Shown in pieces: positions 7,101 through 58,009 of a stretch of DNA of 64,000 nt (positions are counted from its first letter, which is position 1; every line of letters begins with the position of its first letter). Source of the stretch: Cerasicoccus arenae (GTDB taxonomy: Bacteria > Verrucomicrobiota > Verrucomicrobiia > Opitutales > Cerasicoccaceae); NCBI RefSeq assembly GCF_014651635.1, contig NZ_BMXG01000012.1, forward strand, positions 1 through 64,000, given 5' to 3'. Under the pieces are notes generated by a model. That model was not told the DNA's origin. It saw only the letters and a program-made list of their open reading frames with translations, and did not search any database. The translations under genes were made by a program, and so were the position numbers.

Positions 7101-7362
7101 GCCCAAGCCGGAGCTCAAGGCGCTTTCGCATATGTATCGCTCAGCGTGGCGTAAAGGCCTCAAGACCACTTATTACCTACGCACTCTGGCGGCTTCCAAT
7201 ATCGAGAAGGCAACTGTTAGCGTGAAGAAGGAGATGCACGGCGTTATGGGCAGGGCCGATGAAGTCGCCGAAAAACCAAAAAAAGAATACACCGAGGAAG
7301 AAGTGAAGGCATGTAGCCTCGACGCCCTGATAAACGGGGGCGAGTGCGAGGCGTGCCAATGA
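4105..7362 (+). CDS. nrdA: Ribonucleoside-diphosphate reductase, alpha (catalytic) subunit
   Basis: A 1085-residue class I large subunit that reduces NDPs to dNDPs. The N-terminus is extended: a diverged ATP-cone-like segment (about 15-140), a canonical ATP cone (about 153-245, HVRLIRRNRQVVPWDPNKVE) and a third related segment (about 262-345) before the barrel. Catalytic residues are visible: Cys491 (SSCYLYKVDDSIESI), the N703-x-C705-x-E707 triad (NLCTEITL), partner Cys720 (AVCNLGS), the radical-transfer Tyr pair in LKTTYYLRTLAA and the C-terminal redox pair C1081-x-x-C1084. Length and extra cones recall chlamydial NrdA, matching the class Ic-like NrdB. A perfect terminator follows. Confidence 0.97.
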   Translation: MIRNYTFDEDIALKRIVATPAEQKQRFNWREVVLEGNSHPEVKIELAGEEREFELAEVAEIIGNALTDLMLSREENDIFTDKNQTFVAQVAKEVGENIARQIQGKGDITLTDLDINLIIEKALIEHDAHDVARSLVAQRRNGIFGSEDEPEPIHVRLIRRNRQVVPWDPNKVEVAVRKSFLSQQLDSAPAVAVSRGVTERVRTQGESFIHIEQVQDIVQEELMRQGHFKVAESYILYRAHRRNLRDQEAEEDSEDSRQDAMIMLTSKDGSTFFWDPAELRKRIDFSSIGLDLCLTKDQIESELRRSLYAEMTREDLRSTIILNAKSLIEKDADFSKFAGRILLTYIYEEVLDWEIIRDGIEGLKSAHRQYFKACMKRGVELERLDARLLTYDLDRLADALDPSADLDFDYLGISTLYDRYLIIDKSKKEARRLETPQLFWIRVSMGLFMDEKEDREAWVIRLYNLYKSRRFCSSTPTLFNAGTQHSQLSSCYLYKVDDSIESIMHRGIAENAFLSKWAGGLGGSWTAVRGTGSYIKGTNGESQGVIPFLKLHNDQLVAVNQGGKRRGSGCAYLETWHNDIMDFLELRRNVGDERRRTHDMNTANWIPDLFMKRMELRADWTLFRSNEARDLHDLYGKAFEEKYVEYEAKAARGEIWSQTVKAIDMWKSMLRMLFETGHPWITFKDPCNVRSPQDHVGVIHSSNLCTEITLNTSEDETAVCNLGSVVLDSHLDADGQLDLEKLRDTIQVAVRALDNVIDINFYPTKAAETSNRRHRPIGLGVMGVQNALYMKDVPFASTEAVEFNDEFMEAIAYYAYEASSDLASERGSYSTFKGSKWDRGLMPADTLELLEQERGAEIDVPRGGKMDWDTLRAKIGEQGMRNSNVLAIAPTATISNIMGTSPCIEPYYKNFYVKSNLGGDFVVLNHHLVRDFKRRGLWTPEILDQLKYYDGELTNIDGIPGELKDKYATAFGIEFEWFIDAAARRQKWIDQSQSVNLFLPKPELKALSHMYRSAWRKGLKTTYYLRTLAASNIEKATVSVKKEMHGVMGRADEVAEKPKKEYTEEEVKACSLDALINGGECEACQ

Positions 7363-7423
7363 TTTTCAGTTGGAAAGCAAACAAACTGACGCAGACATAA
7401 ACTGACAAGACTGGTAAAGAAGA

Positions 7424-7452
7424 CGGCTCCAGAAAACTGGAGCCGTTTTTTT
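7424..7452 (+). terminator. Intrinsic terminator of nrdA
   Basis: A perfect 9-bp stem CGGCTCCAG/CTGGAGCCG (7424-7432 with 7437-7445), loop AAAA, is followed directly by seven T. It ends the nrdA transcript about 60 bases after the stop codon. Confidence 0.95.
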
Positions 7453-7553
7453 ATGGAACTAATAAAGGCTTTGCATTACAAAGTAGCTTTGTGATGCAAA
7501 GTAAGTTTTCAAATTCCTCGCCACGTGCACCGCGGATTTGCCGTCTGACCACG

Positions 7554-49500: not shown

Positions 49501-50235
49501 TCAAGCACCCGGATCATCTGGATCGAACTTGCCTAGGTATTCATTAATGCGCTGGGCCTGGATTCGATACGAGTCGGGGCGCTTCGGCGGACGGAGGATC
49601 ATCAAAGTGCGTCGATCGGGAGAAAAGCTGAGTTTGCTGTACAATACTTTGTGGATTTGGTCGCCGTCTTTTACGATCAGGCCGAGAGGTGCCTCGCCTT
49701 GATAGTAGGCGCTGATATCAATGGGCTGGTTGCTTCCCGGCTCTATTTTTAGCTCATTTTCGCCCAAAATACCGCTGAAACTGGCTGCGGTGGTGTTGAA
49801 AAATAACACGCTGCCCTCTGGAAAAGCGGATTCGTCATATAGGAAGGTGTGGCTCCGGTAAGGGGGGGGGGCTTGGGTGGTTTTTTCAAGGAGGACAAGC
49901 CACTCCCCGCGAACGTCGGGGAAGCTTATTTGATAAGCCTGTATCAATTGAGTCTTTTCCTCTTTGTCTTTCACTTTGTGGAAGATCGGCATCGGGTTGG
50001 GGCCTTGGTAGTGGTAATACTGTGAGCGTTCGCGTGGGTTGAGGCTTAGCTCGACGGCATTTGAGACCGATGGCTCGCCGTCATCGGTGTAAAACAGCTC
50101 TTGCTCAACCAAGGCAGAATCGAGCGGTAGAACGGCGAAATTCAAATTCAACCGGGACTGATCGTTTAATTGGGCGCTGAGGGACAGAGCTGCCATCATG
50201 ACCACTGCTATTGCACTTCCGATTTGTCTAACCAT
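49501..50235 (-). CDS. Secreted protein of unknown function, partner of the pilin-like protein
   Basis: About 244 residues from ATG 50235 (an ATG at 50241 is also possible); signal peptide MVRQIGSAIAVVMMAALSLS, cleaved near SLSAQ. Beta-rich mature part; I recognise no family. A run of ten G (49862-49871 on the + strand) encodes the prolines in QAPPPYRS. It overlaps the 3' end of the pilin-like gene by about 28 bases, so the two are coupled. Confidence 0.7.
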   Translation of the reverse strand: MVRQIGSAIAVVMMAALSLSAQLNDQSRLNLNFAVLPLDSALVEQELFYTDDGEPSVSNAVELSLNPRERSQYYHYQGPNPMPIFHKVKDKEEKTQLIQAYQISFPDVRGEWLVLLEKTTQAPPPYRSHTFLYDESAFPEGSVLFFNTTAASFSGILGENELKIEPGSNQPIDISAYYQGEAPLGLIVKDGDQIHKVLYSKLSFSPDRRTLMILRPPKRPDSYRIQAQRINEYLGKFDPDDPGA

Positions 50236-53081
50236 CGCCATGAAACAATTTCGAATTTTCGTGGATTGAGTGCAGTTGCATTGAGGTGGGGGGCGGCTTC
50301 GGTGATCAGTGTGGGTTTGCGTCTCACAATGGCTTCGATCCAGGCGCGTGCGGCGACTTCATTGGTGTAGGGGTCGACTGCGTCGCCGAATGAGCGAATG
50401 AGGAAGGTGTCGGATCGCGCCGTTAAGAGCTCGGCTCGCTGCGCGGCGATGTCTCCTTGCGTGATGTAGACATTGGAGTTTTTCATTATATTGGCGTTAA
50501 TTCCTCCCCCGTCGGCTGTTTCGGGCGATTCCAGCAGATCCTGAATTATGCCCGCATCGAGAAATTCCTGGACTGATTTGTAGGGCTTACCGCGCGTCTT
50601 TAAGTGCGTAACAATCCCCTTGGCGATGAAGAGTAGCTGGTCTTTGGCTTTCGCCGAATCAAGTTGCCGCATGCCCTGCTGATAGACGGGGGGGAAATAG
50701 AATGGCGTGGTTTCGAGCTTCGTTGTGGATATTTCAATCCTCGGATTCGCGGCGCTATAGTAGGGGAGGCGAGTAAACAAATTCCGGGCGTATTCCTCGT
50801 CGCCCGATGTTGTTTCGATGAGACCGCGGCTGCTCAGAAATGTCGCCCATGCGGCCACGGATGTGCTGTTCACATTAAATCCACCTTTGACCAACGCTGA
50901 TGAAGCGACTTCCGCCAAATCAGGGCTTCCGGTTGCATCCAGGTAGGCAAGGTGCGGGTTGCTTTTATTACTATCTTCGACAAAGAACCGGTCAAAAATG
51001 TCATTGTTTGCATCAGAATGCGGCATCCCCATCGTGGTCGATGCTTTTTTCCATCGAGGGAGGTACCGTAAGGCACCGAGCGAAACAAAGTCGCTGTCAT
51101 CGCGTGGCAGGTCATAGGCGAGTACTCTTTCACTCAGTTTATGGCTTCGTGTGGTTGCGTCACGGTAGATATCCAGCAGGGAGAAGGTGTTCGCTTTAAG
51201 CTGGGCAGCGTCGGCAGGGTCTGTACTTGCGGAATCAATGAAATCGGAAACTTTGTAGGTAACGCCTTCGTGATCGGTAAAAGTGGCCCCTGCATCCAAG
51301 ACAGGATGTTGCAAATCCAAGCCATCAAGAAGTTCCTTGAGCACACCCGGGTCTGATTCATCGGTGGCCAAACGGAAATGATAAGCGATGGTGTAATCCT
51401 CAACACTATAGGTGAGGCTTTCTGGGCGGGAGAAGGAATCCGCCGCATCGCTTGAGTTGGTCTTGCGGAAGGTCTTCTTGATCGTGAAATCGTCGAATTT
51501 CAAATTTTCGATCGTGAAGACTGGCTGGCCGGACAAATAGTCCTCAATGATGATTCTTACGCCGTCTTTGGGGTGCTTGGCCTTGATCTCAATTTTAGCG
51601 TTATCTGGCGGGCGGGTGTCGTATTCCTCGGCCCAAAGTTGTGTCCCGAAGTCACGTGCCAAGCCTTCCGTTTGGACCATTGGATTTGGCTCCATCACGC
51701 GATAAACTTCGCCCGGCTCCAATTGAGGGCGGTCTTCAAGGTCGATCGGGGCAATGTCTATCCAAGAGCTAATACCCTTCCGGGGGTCATTTGGGGTAGG
51801 GTAAGCGGAGAGATCGTTCAGGTCTTCGGTGATCGTGGGCGCTACACGCTTTTTGGTGGCCTGCCGAATGGTGATGGTTGGCAAGTTTTCAAAGCGGACC
51901 ACAAAAGCTCGATCATGCATCGGATCAGGGTCGGGCGGATAGATGAGGGGCAGGGTGTAGGGATTCCAGAATTCTGCTTCGACGTGAAAACGGATACGTA
52001 GCTGGGCATCTTTCCACGTGTGGAAAATGCCCATCCAGAGCACGATCTCCGTTGGTATTGTTTGCGGAGCGAAGTAGGGTTCCCCTTCTTTACGTAAGGG
52101 GGGGGCGTTGCCCGGCGCCGCTAATAGCGGATCGGGATAGCCGGATAAAAAATCGCGGGTGGCGCGGGTGGCCATCGGGTCATTCAACGTTTCGTCCAGT
52201 AGATTGGCTTTAAGGCCACCGTGGTTAGAATTGGCTAAAACCGTCCATGATGCCGCCGTGGCGTTATGGGAAAAGCTGTCTGCGCGCCATTCTGGAAACG
52301 CCGGTTGGCCACTGGATAGCTCAAGAGCGGTCAATTGATTGTTGGAAAAGGCGACGTCGAGCCGGTTGCTCAGGGCGGGATCAGCTTCCAGATTAAAGTT
52401 GTCGGTTTCTGGGGTGCTGTAGCCTTCTCCTGAAAGGTAATTGAGATCTGGCGCACCGTTCTGAAATTCCAAATACCTCCGTTCGGTCTTGGTTGTGGGG
52501 AAATCATGGATGCGCTCTAAGGCGCTTAAAGCAATTTTGTCGTTTTCGCCACTTATCCAGAATGCGTAATTGCCGACGTGGACGCCGTTCTCATTGATCT
52601 CGATCTTAGGGACACGAATCGCGGCTTTTGTATGTCCGTCGATTACAGAGGCCGATGCTTTGACCAATGATTCACCCGACAGAAACTCGGCTGTTACGTC
52701 CGTCTCACCCGAGACAAGCCAGACAGGAGCGGCGTTGATGTTGGTCGTGTTCCAGACGCCGGTCCAATATTGGTTTCCATCGGCGTAATGGTTGTCACCC
52801 AGAATGTCTGCTCGCGCGGTGACGCGTTGGTCGGGGCCAGCACTTTGCTGGAGTTTGCCCAGCGCGATGAGCAGGCCGAGGCGGGCATTTTCGCGGGCGT
52901 CTTGCCGTTGTTGATCGTGGGTTGCGCTAGCTAGTTCGACTTGTGAGAGGGTGGACAGACTGAGGGTCAGCAAGAGGATGAAGCTCATCAAGCTGATCGC
53001 CACGACCAATGCAAATGCCGGGCGTTTGGGAGATAAACGCCGGATCGTTGCAGTAGATTTGTGTATTGGTGCGCGACTCAT
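50208..53081 (-). CDS. Very large pilin-like secreted protein (Verru_Chthon cassette protein A-like)
   Basis: 957 residues from ATG 53081. The N-terminus RPAFALVVAISLMSFILLLT is a PilX-like pseudopilin leader: basic start, then a single hydrophobic helix. The rest is a long extracellular part with Asp/Asn-rich and WxG-type blocks (YWTGVWNTTN), as in Verru_Chthon cassette protein A (TIGR02600), a group linked to Verrucomicrobia type II-like secretion. Other Verru_Chthon cassette members are not adjacent. G8 (52098-52105) encodes a Pro pair. Confidence 0.65.
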   Translation of the reverse strand: MSRAPIHKSTATIRRLSPKRPAFALVVAISLMSFILLLTLSLSTLSQVELASATHDQQRQDARENARLGLLIALGKLQQSAGPDQRVTARADILGDNHYADGNQYWTGVWNTTNINAAPVWLVSGETDVTAEFLSGESLVKASASVIDGHTKAAIRVPKIEINENGVHVGNYAFWISGENDKIALSALERIHDFPTTKTERRYLEFQNGAPDLNYLSGEGYSTPETDNFNLEADPALSNRLDVAFSNNQLTALELSSGQPAFPEWRADSFSHNATAASWTVLANSNHGGLKANLLDETLNDPMATRATRDFLSGYPDPLLAAPGNAPPLRKEGEPYFAPQTIPTEIVLWMGIFHTWKDAQLRIRFHVEAEFWNPYTLPLIYPPDPDPMHDRAFVVRFENLPTITIRQATKKRVAPTITEDLNDLSAYPTPNDPRKGISSWIDIAPIDLEDRPQLEPGEVYRVMEPNPMVQTEGLARDFGTQLWAEEYDTRPPDNAKIEIKAKHPKDGVRIIIEDYLSGQPVFTIENLKFDDFTIKKTFRKTNSSDAADSFSRPESLTYSVEDYTIAYHFRLATDESDPGVLKELLDGLDLQHPVLDAGATFTDHEGVTYKVSDFIDSASTDPADAAQLKANTFSLLDIYRDATTRSHKLSERVLAYDLPRDDSDFVSLGALRYLPRWKKASTTMGMPHSDANNDIFDRFFVEDSNKSNPHLAYLDATGSPDLAEVASSALVKGGFNVNSTSVAAWATFLSSRGLIETTSGDEEYARNLFTRLPYYSAANPRIEISTTKLETTPFYFPPVYQQGMRQLDSAKAKDQLLFIAKGIVTHLKTRGKPYKSVQEFLDAGIIQDLLESPETADGGGINANIMKNSNVYITQGDIAAQRAELLTARSDTFLIRSFGDAVDPYTNEVAARAWIEAIVRRKPTLITEAAPHLNATALNPRKFEIVSWRWLDKSEVQ

Positions 53082-53171
53082 ACCTCGAACCACTCAGCAA
53101 GTTGTATGCGAGCGTGCGAAATAAAACGAGGTTACCGCACAAATACAAGCACGGCTTCGCGAGCCAATTAA

Positions 53172-55733
53172 TTAGCCCTTTCCAGGCAAAGTCTTTTGAA
53201 TTAAGCGTTTCGTTTCGGTGAAGCGTTTATTGGCAAATGCCGTTAGCTCATCAAGATTCATGGCCCGGACTCGGTCTGGATATTCACGCCACGAATTAAC
53301 TGGCAGGTCGTAGAGCACATTGAGACAGGCATGCATCGCTCGGGAGCCCGGAGACTGTTGGCTTTGCTCACGACGGACGATGAGCCGTGTCTTGCATGCG
53401 GACCATTCGCCTACGGTAAATTTACCGCTGCGGGCGCGCTCAACTTCGGCTAGGATTTCGGCTTCTACTTCGTCTGCCTGTGCAGGGCTGGTGCCCGCAT
53501 AGAAGGAGAACATGCCGCAATCCAGGCCGAGTATGCGTTGTGAGCCGACAAAGTAGGCCATGCCTTTTTCCTCCCGCACTCGCTGGAACAGTTGGCTGGA
53601 CATGCCGCTGAAGAGTTCGTCCAGGGCCTCGCCCGCGAGGTATTCGTCACGTTGGTGAACGCCGCAGTCAGGGTAGGCAACGAGCACAATGGCTTGCTCG
53701 CGGTCGCGCTGTTCGTCATGCGTGCCGATCAGCGAGGGGGCGTCATGGGCAGGGCAGTTGAGAGGGGCAAAGTCGGCTGGCAGGGCTTCCAGAATAGGCC
53801 CTAAGGTGTCGACAATGGCGTTGCGCTCGAATTGCCCCGTGACGGCGAGCAGGGCGTTGGGCCCGGCAATCAGTCGTTTGGCTAAATCGCGGATATGGTC
53901 CACCGTCAAGTGGTTCAGGTCGTCTTCGCTGCCCAGATAATCAGCGGCGTAAGGGTGCTTCCCGAAGAATTTCTGCCGTAATCGGCGGCGACTCCATTCG
54001 AGTACTTCGTCTTCGTCTTCGTGGATTCCGGCGATTTGCGCGTCGCGCTCGATCTCAAAGGTCTTGAGGAGCAGGGCTGGGCGCAGTAGGGCGTCTGCAA
54101 GTAGTTCGGCAGCGAGTGGGAAATCCCCGGTCAGGGTCTCCATGGCTAGGCCGAAGGTATTATTGCCCACTTGCTCTTCAAAGCTTCCGCCAATGGATTC
54201 AATGGCGGCGGCAACTTCGGATTGGCTGCGGTTGGCGGTATCGCGGGTCAGCAGTGTGGCAAGCACGCCAGTGGCTCCACGTTGGCCTACAGGGTCCCAG
54301 AGTGGGCCGCCGGAGGCTACGTAGCGCAAGTGTGTCTTGGGGACGCTTCCGCCGGGCTGAAGGAGCAATTTAGCGCCATTGGCAAAGGGCACCACTTCGA
54401 AATCAGGCAAAGCGGCACCGGTATTGATGCTCGGTGCCGTGATTTCCGCGGGCTTGGGGTCGAGCGAGGCCACGGTTTCAGCCGTTTTGATCAAATAACG
54501 TACTGCGGCGGATTGAACGGACTCAGGAGTGAGTTGCGCGAGACGAAGCAGGTGCTGGCGCGGGAAACCGAGATCACCCGCGACGACTTCCGCGGAACCG
54601 AGACGGCTGGCTTGCCCGCTGACGGTTTTGCGAGCGTTCACTTCGGCTACGAGGGATTGGCGGACCACCTTGGCGACTTCGTCGGGGCGGGGGATGCGCT
54701 TTTGGGCCTGTTCTAGTTCGCTGCGAATGGCGTCTTCGACGGCTTCGCGTTTGCCTGGGTCGCAGACGAAACTGATCCAGAGCAGCCCGTGGTCGCCGGG
54801 GTTCCAGCAGCCAGCGCCGATACTATGGACCAAGCGTTGACGCTCGCGGAGGCTCTGCCAGAGCCAGGAGCTTGCGCCGTGGCCGAGCAGGCGGGCCAGA
54901 ACGTCGAGAGCGGGGGCGTCCTCAGCCGAGAGGCCGGGCACTTTGTAGCCAATGAAGCCACGAACGATGTTAAAATCACCCACTGCACGGTCGCTGCGGG
55001 GAGCGAGTTGGGCGGGTTCGTCAGGGAACCAGGCTGGGGCGAGCTGGCGCATGGGCGCTTGGCCAAAATATTTGTCAGCGAGTTCGCGGCACTCGGTTTC
55101 CCCAAGCGCGCCTACGACGATCAGCACAATATTGTTGGGCGCATAGCGGCCTTGATAGTAGTCTCGCAGATGCGTTGGCGTGACGCCCTCAAACAGTGAC
55201 CGATGGCCGATGACCGGATGCCGATAAGGGTGCTCACGGAAGGCGGAGTGGGCGAAGGTGTGAAAGAGGCGGCGATCAGGGTCATCAAGGCCCATGTCAA
55301 TCTCGCGCAGGATTACGTCTCGTTCGCGTAGGATCTCCGCTTCTGGGAGCGCGGAGTTCAGGGACATGTCGGAAAGCACGTCAAAAAGTGTTTCTGCCGC
55401 GCTCGACGGCCCATCAATGTAATACACGGTGCGGTCAAAGGTGGTGTAGGCGTTCACATAGCCGCCGCAACTGTTGATTTCCCGACTGATGTCCAATGGG
55501 CCGCGCTTCTCGGTACCCTTGAAGAGTAGGTGCTCCAGATAGTGCGATAGGCCAGCGCCGAGCATGGTGCCTTCGTGCATGCTGCCCGTCTTGACCCATG
55601 TTTGCACGGAGATCAGCGCCGCCGCACGATCCTCCTTGTGGATGACCGTTAGCCCGTTGGGCAACTGGTAGCGGTGGACGGTTTCTTGGGCAAGTGCGTC
55701 GATGAGATCGGCGTTGGTAGATTGGTCAGACAT
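53172..55733 (-). CDS. M16 family metallopeptidase (two fused halves)
   Basis: 853 residues without signal peptide. The inverted zinc motif HxxEH is His64-Tyr-Leu-Glu67-His68 (GLSHYLEHLLFKGT), with a distal Glu expected near 144 (ERDVILREIDMG). A full N-half (M16 plus M16_C) is followed by a second, inactive copy (about 430-850) with PDFEVVPFANGAKLLLQ and the later EEKGMAYFVGSQRILGL. This is the pitrilysin/insulinase-like layout of the PqqL/processing-protease type. It cleaves peptides, substrate unknown. Start ATG 55733. Confidence 0.93.
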   Translation of the reverse strand: MSDQSTNADLIDALAQETVHRYQLPNGLTVIHKEDRAAALISVQTWVKTGSMHEGTMLGAGLSHYLEHLLFKGTEKRGPLDISREINSCGGYVNAYTTFDRTVYYIDGPSSAAETLFDVLSDMSLNSALPEAEILRERDVILREIDMGLDDPDRRLFHTFAHSAFREHPYRHPVIGHRSLFEGVTPTHLRDYYQGRYAPNNIVLIVVGALGETECRELADKYFGQAPMRQLAPAWFPDEPAQLAPRSDRAVGDFNIVRGFIGYKVPGLSAEDAPALDVLARLLGHGASSWLWQSLRERQRLVHSIGAGCWNPGDHGLLWISFVCDPGKREAVEDAIRSELEQAQKRIPRPDEVAKVVRQSLVAEVNARKTVSGQASRLGSAEVVAGDLGFPRQHLLRLAQLTPESVQSAAVRYLIKTAETVASLDPKPAEITAPSINTGAALPDFEVVPFANGAKLLLQPGGSVPKTHLRYVASGGPLWDPVGQRGATGVLATLLTRDTANRSQSEVAAAIESIGGSFEEQVGNNTFGLAMETLTGDFPLAAELLADALLRPALLLKTFEIERDAQIAGIHEDEDEVLEWSRRRLRQKFFGKHPYAADYLGSEDDLNHLTVDHIRDLAKRLIAGPNALLAVTGQFERNAIVDTLGPILEALPADFAPLNCPAHDAPSLIGTHDEQRDREQAIVLVAYPDCGVHQRDEYLAGEALDELFSGMSSQLFQRVREEKGMAYFVGSQRILGLDCGMFSFYAGTSPAQADEVEAEILAEVERARSGKFTVGEWSACKTRLIVRREQSQQSPGSRAMHACLNVLYDLPVNSWREYPDRVRAMNLDELTAFANKRFTETKRLIQKTLPGKG

Positions 55734-55825: not shown

Positions 55826-56272
55826 CTATTCGATGGCATGAAATGATCCATAGACTACGCCTAGAAGGTTCTCGGGCGTCACGTAGTCTGGATCTTCAAA
55901 GGCGTTGTTAATGCCTTGGACAGTCCAATACTTGCCCTCCTTAGCCAAGAGTGCATGAACGACTTTGCGTCCACTCAAGTCCTTATAAGCCACCACCATT
56001 CCTGGCTTCAGTTCATCGTAATTGATGGGGTTGATGACCAAGTAGGCGTTTTTCCCATAGAGCGGCTGCATCGAGGTTCCCTCAGCGGGGCCGCTGATAC
56101 GCCCGTCGCCGAGGTCTTCCACGATCATGGCAGCGCGCCCAGCTTCCCTATAGCCTAACGATGAGACTGGGGCCACTTCGTTTGGAGAGGATTCCAGAGT
56201 GCAACCGCCAGATAAGGCTGCTAAAGCCGTCAGCAGACCTAAGGTTGGAAGTCGCAATTTGGTACTAATCAT
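55826..56272 (-). CDS. Lipoprotein with signal-peptidase-I-like (S26, ER-type) domain
   Basis: 148 residues. N-terminal signal and lipobox-like site (ALAALSGGC). Residues 60-142 follow the signal peptidase I fold in order: Ser67 in EGTSMQPL (box B), LKPGMVVAYKD (box C-like), His106 in KVVHALLA where ER/SipW-type enzymes have the catalytic His, and TVQGINNAFEDPDYVTPENLLGVVYG (box E; usual GDNN reads GINN). The Ser-His distance of 39 residues fits SipW-type enzymes. Unlike them, it has no C-terminal membrane helix and is probably anchored by lipid. Diverges from the similar gene at 56505. Confidence 0.75.
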   Translation of the reverse strand: MISTKLRLPTLGLLTALAALSGGCTLESSPNEVAPVSSLGYREAGRAAMIVEDLGDGRISGPAEGTSMQPLYGKNAYLVINPINYDELKPGMVVAYKDLSGRKVVHALLAKEGKYWTVQGINNAFEDPDYVTPENLLGVVYGSFHAIE

Positions 56273-56504
56273 TGTGTAAATAAAATGATTTTTTCCGTCG
56301 GGTCTTAACTGTATTCGGTGTAATGCGAACTGGCTAAGCCATCTACAGTCTTCACTGTCTTTTTATGCAGTCTGCGCAGTGGTTTTGTCCGTCCTGTTTT
56401 GTACAATATAGCAGTGTGGATTGTCTTAAATTAAATTAACGGCGAAGTACATATCCGGCCTCAAGTGAATACCTTTATCGACTGCTGTATGAGAGAATTA
56501 AGGC

Positions 56505-56999
56505 ATGAAAGCGTTAATCTCTTTAATTTTATTTTCCACCGGTATCTTCGGTCTCGTTTCTCTTGAAGCGTCGAATGTCGAAGTAAGCATGCATACTACT
56601 GTTCCTTTGAAGCAGGCGATTCAGGATGCGATGAAGGTTGCAGATCGAAATGCTAATTGGGAAGTGATGCTGGGGCAGGGGAAGTCGATGAGTCCGTATT
56701 TTAACAGTGGCTCAGTGCTCTTGGTTGATAATGCGCCATTCAGGAAGCTTAAGCAGGGCATGATGGTAGTCTTTAAAGATGCTGAAGGCGATTGGGAATG
56801 TCACTGGCTTGTTCGGAAAGAGGCAGATAAGTGGGTCACACAGGGTGTCAATAATGCTTCGGTGGACCCTGACTTAATAGGGGAGTCTAATTACCGGGGA
56901 GTTGTTTTCGGGGTGTTGAATTCTGCGGGTGCTGAGCCTGAGGGGCTCGCATACGCACAGAGCCTAGGGTTGGAGAGTGCAATCGGGAAAACTCGATAA
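56505..56999 (+). CDS. Secreted protein with signal-peptidase-I-like (S26, ER-type) domain, paralogue
   Basis: 164 residues with a signal peptide (MKALISLILFSTGIFGLVSLEA). It repeats the block order of the lipoprotein at 55826: Ser61 in GQGKSMSPYF, KLKQGMMVVFKD, His100 in ECHWLVRK, and TQGVNNASVDPDL...YRGVVFG. The Ser-His distance is again 39. Lys at the bacterial-type position is replaced by Trp97. It may be an active Ser-His peptidase or an inactive paralogue. About 230 bases separate it from its divergent partner. A helical C-terminal tail of about 25 residues follows. Confidence 0.75.
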   Translation: MKALISLILFSTGIFGLVSLEASNVEVSMHTTVPLKQAIQDAMKVADRNANWEVMLGQGKSMSPYFNSGSVLLVDNAPFRKLKQGMMVVFKDAEGDWECHWLVRKEADKWVTQGVNNASVDPDLIGESNYRGVVFGVLNSAGAEPEGLAYAQSLGLESAIGKTR

Positions 57000-57109: not shown

Positions 57110-57748
57110 TTAGTTAACGCCGACAAGTCCGCTGGCAATTGCGTAGCGAGTCAGGCCGGGGGCATCATGGATATTCAGTTTATTGATGATGCGGTTACGG
57201 TGGGTTTCAGCGGTCTTAACACTGATGCCGAGCTTTTCAGCGATTTCCTTGTTGCTGTTGCTTTCGGCGATCAACTGAAGAATTTCCCGCTCCCTGAAAG
57301 TCAGATCATCAGCTGTTTCCACTTGAGATGGGTTCAGCATTAGATCGCGCATCATTATTGAAATGTTTGGGCTGAAGTAAGTCTGTCCTTCGGCAACCAT
57401 TTTAATCGCTGTTTCCAAGACTTGAAGCGATTCTGTCTTTTGTACCAAGCCATTGGCACCCGCCTCAATCATTTGGCGAACTTGGCTTCGATTGGAAAAT
57501 GAAGAAAAACCGAGAACAAGAACATCAGGCATTTCTTTACTTAGTCGCTTTAACATGCTGATGCCGTTTAAGCCTGGAAGCACGACATCGAGTATTATCA
57601 TGTCCGGCTTGTGTTCTTTGATTAGGTTATAACCCTCTAGCCCATCGCCGGTATCACCAACGAGTTCGAGCATCGGAAAGTTCTGAACCATAACCTTAAT
57701 AAATTCCCGAAGGATTTTTTGGTCTTCTATAACAACTATACGTTTCAT
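57110..57748 (-). CDS. Response regulator, NarL/FixJ family (REC-LuxR HTH)
   Basis: 212 residues from ATG 57748. The receiver domain has the phosphoacceptor Asp54 (MIILDVVLPGLNG), acidic pocket residues Glu8/Asp9 and the conserved Lys of LVQKTES. The LuxR-type HTH (about 140-205) includes LTFREREILQLIAESNSNKE and ISVKTAETHRNRIINKL. No histidine kinase is adjacent, so the signal is unknown. It is convergent with the S26-like gene at 56505 and lies upstream of three PEP-CTERM/prepilin genes. Confidence 0.93.
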   Translation of the reverse strand: MKRIVVIEDQKILREFIKVMVQNFPMLELVGDTGDGLEGYNLIKEHKPDMIILDVVLPGLNGISMLKRLSKEMPDVLVLGFSSFSNRSQVRQMIEAGANGLVQKTESLQVLETAIKMVAEGQTYFSPNISIMMRDLMLNPSQVETADDLTFREREILQLIAESNSNKEIAEKLGISVKTAETHRNRIINKLNIHDAPGLTRYAIASGLVGVN

Positions 57749-58009
57749 ACAGGTTATAATGTAAACGAACAACTGTATGGATTCAATGTATAGTCATCCC
57801 TATTTGCCTGTTGAATGCCGTCTAATATTGGGGGGTTTTTAGCCTTAAGTTTTCAAGACTAGTGTGTATGATTGAGTTTGTTGATTGAGAACACACTATT
57901 TTCCGAAATTCTATACACTTTCAGTATAATGTGCACTGATTCAGTATTAATCCAAGTTTTTGAATGTCCAGACACGGGCTTAATGAAGCCTCTGGCATTG
58001 TCTTGAGCT

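Follow-up and report, generated by a model that had tools for sequence, protein, structure and literature searches.

The window analyzed here is a stretch of 64,000 nucleotides from Cerasicoccus arenae (contig NZ_BMXG01000012.1, positions 1 to 64,000), whose genome assembly comprises 4.13 Mb in 63 contigs. Two divergent genes in this window, here called A and B, encode small proteins predicted to be exported and to possess a signal-peptidase-fold protease domain. Between them lies a putative promoter region, and next to them lies a gene encoding a LuxR-type response regulator. The features are as follows.

55826 to 56272, minus strand: gene A, predicted lipoprotein with a signal-peptidase-fold protease domain, 148 aa (open reading frame confirmed)
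55892 to 55894, minus strand: A Asp127 codon, third residue of the putative triad (invariant in 29/29 A; aligned to the last Asp of SEC11A/C GDNNxxDD)
55955 to 55957, minus strand: A His106 codon, putative base (invariant in 29/29 A)
56072 to 56074, minus strand: A Ser67 codon, putative nucleophile (invariant in 29/29 A)
56273 to 56504, no strand assigned: A/B divergent promoter region (tandem CTGWAT sites in relatives L033, L046, and L047; window copy degenerate at most)
56505 to 56999, plus strand: gene B, predicted exported soluble signal-peptidase-fold protease, 164 aa (open reading frame confirmed)
56685 to 56687, plus strand: B Ser61 codon, putative nucleophile (invariant in 34/34 B)
56802 to 56804, plus strand: B His100 codon, putative base (invariant in 34/34 B)
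56865 to 56867, plus strand: B Asp121 codon, third residue of the putative triad (invariant in 34/34 B; aligned to the last Asp of SEC11A/C GDNNxxDD)
57110 to 57772, minus strand: LuxR-type response regulator, recurring neighbor of A/B (family-model match begins at 57748)

Protein A begins with a lipoprotein-type signal that ends in an LSGGC lipobox, and then displays S67 in GTSMQP, H106, and GINN at residues 120-123. Protein B has an N-terminal signal, followed by S61 in GKSMSP, H100, and GVNN at residues 114-117. In each protein, 39 residues separate the Ser from the His. Both open reading frames therefore agree with the first-pass annotation of this DNA, which had described the S26 block order with Ser in SM(Q/S)P and a His 39 residues on; the lipobox of A and the N-terminal signal of B likewise fit its designation of A as a lipoprotein and of B as a soluble or signal-anchored protein. 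Sequence comparison shows A and B to be 32% identical (E 5.9e-17). Given this relatedness, together with the invariance of Ser, His, and the second Asp in 63/63 relatives, the resemblance within the pair is not a matter of chance.

Sequence models place both proteins near signal peptidases. The best Pfam match for each is Peptidase_S24 (PF00717), which is weak (A 0.02, B 4.3e-4). Among NCBIfam models, the best is TIGR02228, the archaeal-type signal peptidase (A 3.6e-8, B 8.5e-12), at scores of 33.4 bits for A and 45.2 bits for B that fall under its curated cut-off of 51.85 bits. The best of the relatives score above the window proteins (E 2.3e-17), and TIGR02228 is matched at E 1e-3 or better by 34/34 B and 29/29 A sequences. 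The SipW model NF046067 is matched at E 1e-3 by 20/34 B and 12/29 A; its cut-off is 190 bits, window B reaches 17 bits, and window A yields no match at E up to 10. When a profile of 32 relatives was run against PDB sequences, the top matches were SEC11C (2.2e-8) and then SEC11A (4.4e-7).

Predicted structures point to the same superfamily. AlphaFold models were generated for A (29-sequence alignment; pLDDT 88.8, pTM 0.72) and for B (34-sequence alignment; pLDDT 92.5, pTM 0.81). The fold search with the A model retrieved the C-terminal domain of lambda repressor at rmsd 3.6, as well as SEC11A (E 3.1e-4, but at rmsd 20.4 over the whole chain). With the B model, Foldseek returned nothing below E 0.001, the best match being 1.3e-3. 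In a VIA-align comparison of B, the first 43 rows are all S24/S26 proteins (Z 5.6 to 9.7), ahead of any other fold. These include UmuD' (Z 9.1, rmsd 3.4, 95 aligned), LepB (Z 9.0, rmsd 1.9, 91 aligned), SEC11C (Z 8.8, rmsd 3.7, 110 aligned), and SEC11A (Z 8.7, rmsd 3.5, 108 aligned). According to these models, A and B share the LexA/signal-peptidase fold that is a criterion of the S26B type I signal peptidases.

The candidate catalytic residues are invariant. Specifically, Ser, His, and Asp are present in 63/63 sequences (S61, H100, and D121 in 34 B; S67, H106, and D127 in 29 A), against a mean column identity in the alignments of 39% for B and 34% for A. The base position is His in all 63, and the S24-type Ser-Lys dyad is absent. 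The Pro of the SMxP box is kept in 30/34 B and 29/29 A. In one family (L104, L105, L107, and L108), B carries SMGD or SMGE in the place of SMxP and keeps Ser, His, and Asp.

The GDNN segment is altered: its first position is Asp in 0/34 B and 2/29 A, and the invariant Asp lies six residues past the replaced residue (D127 in A, D121 in B). When A and B are aligned with SEC11A/C, this invariant Asp falls on the last Asp of GDNNAVDD. We take the catalytic Asp of the SEC11A triad to be residue 122. In the alignment, the invariant Asp of A and B corresponds to SEC11A residue 122, the chain numbering being offset by one and fixed by S56 of PMC13385932. That paper states a Ser-His-Asp triad, with the Ser numbered S56. 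Of the two Asp residues of the box, the review PMC2913515 describes both as essential in yeast and just one as essential in archaeal enzymes. The predicted Ser-His-Asp triad is complete in A and B. Since the third catalytic residue is kept, the change in box E is no sign of lost activity. We considered loss of activity from the altered GDNN and rejected it, because the second Asp is invariant in 63/63 and aligned to the last SEC11 Asp.

These analyses refine the first-pass annotation. Its statement that the box E Asp is changed in both proteins is correct for the first Asp of GDNN and incomplete in that the Asp six residues on is retained. Its Ser-His active site of the ER/SipW type withstood a check of conservation, with the active-site residues invariant in 63/63, and its proposed S26/S24 fold withstood structure prediction and a fold search, from which no different fold emerged.

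Export and anchoring were judged from sequence features. The catalytic part, defined as everything from 18 residues upstream of the Ser onward, contains no 19-residue window at a hydropathy of at least 1.6 in 63/63 sequences, and the N-terminal part reaches 1.6 over such a window in 27/34 B and 20/29 A. The lipobox Cys is aligned in 27/29 A. The lack of such a window supports the earlier description of proteins without membrane anchors as far as the catalytic part is concerned. Residue +2 of A is Asp in none of the A sequences. By the E. coli sorting rule, a lipoprotein without Asp at +2 favors the outer membrane. Thus, if that rule applies, A probably resides there. Among B sequences, 28/34 have AxA somewhere in residues 15-47; this count is loose, covering sites within the hydrophobic stretch and downstream of it as well. 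Window B has no AxA in these residues. Export being judged by motifs, an uncleaved signal is possible in some B proteins. The permanent N-terminal transmembrane anchor of S26B enzymes appears to be absent from A and B, for B on motifs only. Finally, the window genome has a separate LepB-type gene (C7, 475-aa frame), so the A/B pair is not the housekeeping signal peptidase.

The pair belongs to a family that is concentrated in one bacterial order. At the phylum level, 29/288 genomes match at 1e-10, with 25 of them within the order and the other four representing weak local matches. At E up to 0.001, the S26 family is present in 44/223 genomes of the order. More permissive and narrower searches gave, respectively, B-like matches in 26/54 relatives at E up to 1, some of them by chance, and four loci with a set of 8 sequences, three from Cerasicoccus and one from a Verrucomicrobiota MAG. 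We studied 53 loci, consisting of the window and 52 stretches from relatives (32 + 20); three of the genomes, G001-G003, share their genus with the window genome. At 25/53 loci (21 genomes), both A and B are found, divergently at 23 and convergently at 2 (L051, L102). The regulator sits between A and B at L044, L050, L099, and L101, and other genes separate A from B at L106. Unlinked copies of both A and B, with A beside the regulator, are retained by G004 and by three f14 family genomes (G057, G105, G116).

In the tree, for which only a midpoint root is available, B forms a single clade (100/99) with members from several families of the order, and A and unassigned sequences are placed around it. 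The simplest history would be one old A/B duplication and a subsequent loss of the lipobox in B. More distant single relatives (L036, L053, L054, L059, L060, L061, L064) have a signal-like stretch at the N terminus together with an unaltered GDNN, and the six distant GDNN-intact relatives included in the tree all fall on one branch. Signal-peptidase-fold proteins without a membrane helix may extend more widely than the A/B pair. Judged by sequence conservation, A and B form a genuine and well-conserved lineage within the signal-peptidase superfamily, found in a single bacterial order. A literature search, with subscription journals mostly outside its coverage, found no description of such a pair.

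The recurring partner of A and B is a response regulator. The window regulator (57110-57772) consists of a receiver domain and a LuxR HTH, and its phosphorylation residues are conserved. A regulator of this subfamily lies within 4 kb at 22/53 loci: 18 are at most 225 bp from an A or B gene, 2 are at 1.1 kb, and 2 are at 3.9 kb with a kinase in between. Every one of the 22 belongs to the 38 loci at which A or B scores above 150 bits, and none to the other 15. At 16 of those 38 strong loci, the regulator is absent from the examined stretch, and some of these stretches end at a contig edge. The regulator model, which was built from 13 of the 22 loci, finds 9/20 loci that gave it no sequence. The window genome, which also has paralogues of the regulator, contains only six LuxR-type HTH matches, all over cut-off, making chance adjacency to A/B unlikely. 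Across genomes, the regulator subfamily is present at E 1e-40 in 41/44 with the S26 family and in 59/179 without it, and is thus not restricted to genomes with the pair.

Candidate operator sites exist in some A/B gaps. At L033, seven CACTGWAT-like sites follow one another in steps of 21-23 bp (7321 to 7452; array 7321-7459). The gaps of L046 and L047 have three CTGWAT sites each, also spaced by 21-23 bp, and L042 has a weaker set; L042, L046, and L047 are close relatives from one genus. Applied to 223 genomes, a strict three-site pattern finds the A/B gaps of G001, G008, and G009 and, elsewhere, a 21-bp tandem repeat (G134) and 7-bp-unit repeats (G017, G061); the backward control of this pattern gives one match (G076). 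A two-site pattern applied to 10 family genomes gives 7 matches, 2 of them in the L033 array, with 0 for the backward control and a chance estimate of about 4. No wider CTGWAT regulon was found with the strict two-site (10 genomes) and three-site (223 genomes) patterns. On 31 other upstream stretches, several of which come from close relatives and are non-independent, the motif is weak (Fisher p 0.024, 100 mononucleotide shuffles each). K-mer and phased-repeat scans of the upstream stretches were mostly not significant. In the window gap, any such array is degenerate at best (p 0.04, 100 shuffles), and the strict CTGWAT pattern has no match in the window genome. The phased array fits a regulator that would stack on one face of the DNA. 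The neighboring regulator is the candidate binder, with no such regulator in the examined stretch at L046 and L047.

A few other neighbors recur. At L040:6526-10916 (G004) and L044:2882-7299 (G006), B is transcribed in the same direction as a LolA-like gene (PF17131) and a large gene resembling transporters. The large gene in L044 encodes MMPL and cyclic-nucleotide-binding domains, and that in L040 belongs to the same sequence cluster. At L058, an A-like gene is divergent from members of the LolA-like and large-gene clusters. The LolA-like and transporter-like neighbors of B fit an outer-membrane theme and are too rare to decide the matter. In the window, an M16 peptidase gene (53172-55733) adjoins A, and its cluster is restricted to Cerasicoccus among the first 33 loci (window, L034, L038, L039). 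Two adjoining genes at 49501-53093 (246 and 961 aa) have no Pfam match and occur at the same four Cerasicoccus loci.

We propose, with moderate confidence, that A and B are exported, probably active envelope endopeptidases that have dedicated substrates and are under the command of a LuxR-type two-component regulator. The notion is that two exported endopeptidases would have arisen from an ER/archaeal-type (Ser-His-Asp) signal peptidase, retaining its catalytic domain but not its membrane helix. A would be tethered to a membrane, probably the outer one, by a lipid on its N-terminal Cys, and B would move freely in the periplasm. The timing of their production would be governed by a LuxR-type response regulator dedicated to them. 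The two enzymes would then cleave one particular envelope or secreted protein, or a small number of them, like SipW-type enzymes with few dedicated substrates. Catalytic activity, compartment, and control by the adjoining regulator are what we infer from the features above. Points against this proposal are the replacement of the first GDNN Asp, the SMGD or SMGE box of B in one family, the strong loci without a regulator, the occurrence of the regulator subfamily in genomes lacking the S26 family, the motif-based view of B signal cleavage, the Foldseek result for B, and the whole-chain SEC11A superposition of A.

SipW is of the Ser-His type and is membrane-bound. The SipW enzymes of Bacillus and Clostridium (NF046067) resemble the proposed system in having few substrates and, in Clostridium perfringens, in depending on two-component control. 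Specifically, PMC7395162 describes a C. perfringens sipW operon that requires the BsaR/BsaS two-component system, with SipW serving BsaA. By analogy, SipW/BsaR/BsaS would be the nearest working parallel to A and B. We also entertain, tentatively and with some doubt, a two-enzyme proteolytic relay beyond the inner membrane. The freed domain would have been duplicated into an outer-membrane lipoprotein and a periplasmic form, with its own regulator on a helically phased operator array, and the relay would act once translocation is over, either maturing or degrading an envelope substrate of its own.

Among the alternatives, the one that fares best, and that we nonetheless regard as unlikely, is signaling proteolysis. 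In this case, A and B would generate or degrade a peptide or receptor domain in the periplasm that serves as input to kinases upstream of the regulator, and the pair would be part of a sensing loop rather than an output. The varied gene orders in which the regulator is linked to the pair (next to B, next to A, or between the two) are in keeping with such a loop. So are kinases of one sequence cluster at 8/33 loci, near the pair in L033, L035, L037, L045, L048, L050, and L052; the five that were checked are PAS-type, mostly hybrid. The window pair speaks against it, having no adjoining kinase. The neighboring open reading frames considered were those of at least 70 aa, a threshold that smaller peptide genes could escape.

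The surroundings of the window pair suggest another role, the processing of PEP-CTERM or prepilin-type surface proteins, which the first-pass annotation had put forward. The neighbors it had named are indeed there: domain matches, each above its Pfam cut-off, identify the response regulator and, after it, a prepilin-like N_methyl protein as well as two PEP-CTERM proteins. In a rough motif scan of the 579 flanking open reading frames of the 53 loci, a PEP-CTERM-like gene is no more than four genes away from the S26 gene at 6/53 loci (window, L033, L038, L039, L042, L102), of which L033 looks false, and a prepilin-like gene is equally close at 3/53 (window, L038, L039). The window genome, however, has at least 44 PEP-CTERM genes among an estimated 3,600 or so genes, and thus about as many loci with a PEP-CTERM neighbor are expected by chance; the other 47/53 loci have no such gene within four genes. 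Co-occurrence with exosortase points both ways. At E 1e-3, exosortase is found in 159/223 genomes of the order, 15 of which are over the curated cut-off. It accompanies the S26 family in 43/44 genomes, yet it is also common without the family, in 116/179 (Fisher value for this contrast 1.5e-6, kinship ignored). With neighbors near the chance level and an exosortase so widespread, the proposed processing role is not supported, and we consider it improbable.

Still less probable is that A and B are catalytically idle chaperones or assembly factors with a signal-peptidase fold, like SipA of Streptococcus pyogenes (4n31), which is used for pilus polymerization. SipA lacks the catalytic residues. 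It tops the VIA-align comparison of B (Z 9.7, rmsd 2.2, 90 aligned), yet its score is within 1 of those of several active proteases. A and B, for their part, keep the catalytic residues: the SipA-type loss is absent from their relatives, in which Ser, His, and Asp are invariant in 63/63 while the rest of the protein diverges. Finally, it is very improbable that A and B are auxiliary ordinary signal peptidases that cut the signal peptides of a few Sec substrates while held at the inner membrane by a lipid or an uncleaved signal, either of which could stand in for the helix, for although the closest curated model is a signal peptidase and window B lacks AxA, many B proteins have AxA after the hydrophobic stretch (by the loose count) and the +2 residue of A would, by the E. 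coli rule, favor the outer membrane.

A and B share with the ER/archaeal signal peptidases (SEC11A/SEC11C, TIGR02228) the predicted fold, the Ser-His-Asp order, and the GxNNxxxD segment. They differ in having no helix before the catalytic domain except the export signal, in the replacement of the first GDNN Asp, and in window scores under the curated cut-off. For these three reasons, we do not class A and B as signal peptidase I, although they probably work like one. The S24 proteins, namely LexA, UmuD, and the lambda repressor C-terminal domain, are soluble versions of the fold. S24 proteins are cytoplasmic Ser-Lys self-cleavers, whereas A and B are exported, as judged by their signal motifs, and carry Ser-His-Asp.

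Type I signal peptidases are regarded as membrane enzymes that work at the translocon, where they cut preproteins. If our proposal is correct, this conserved, helix-free pair with a full triad would represent a signal-peptidase domain reused for regulated proteolysis in the envelope. Moreover, the small soluble domain of B could serve as a model for the Ser-His-Asp mechanism, which is membrane-embedded in SEC11 and SipW.
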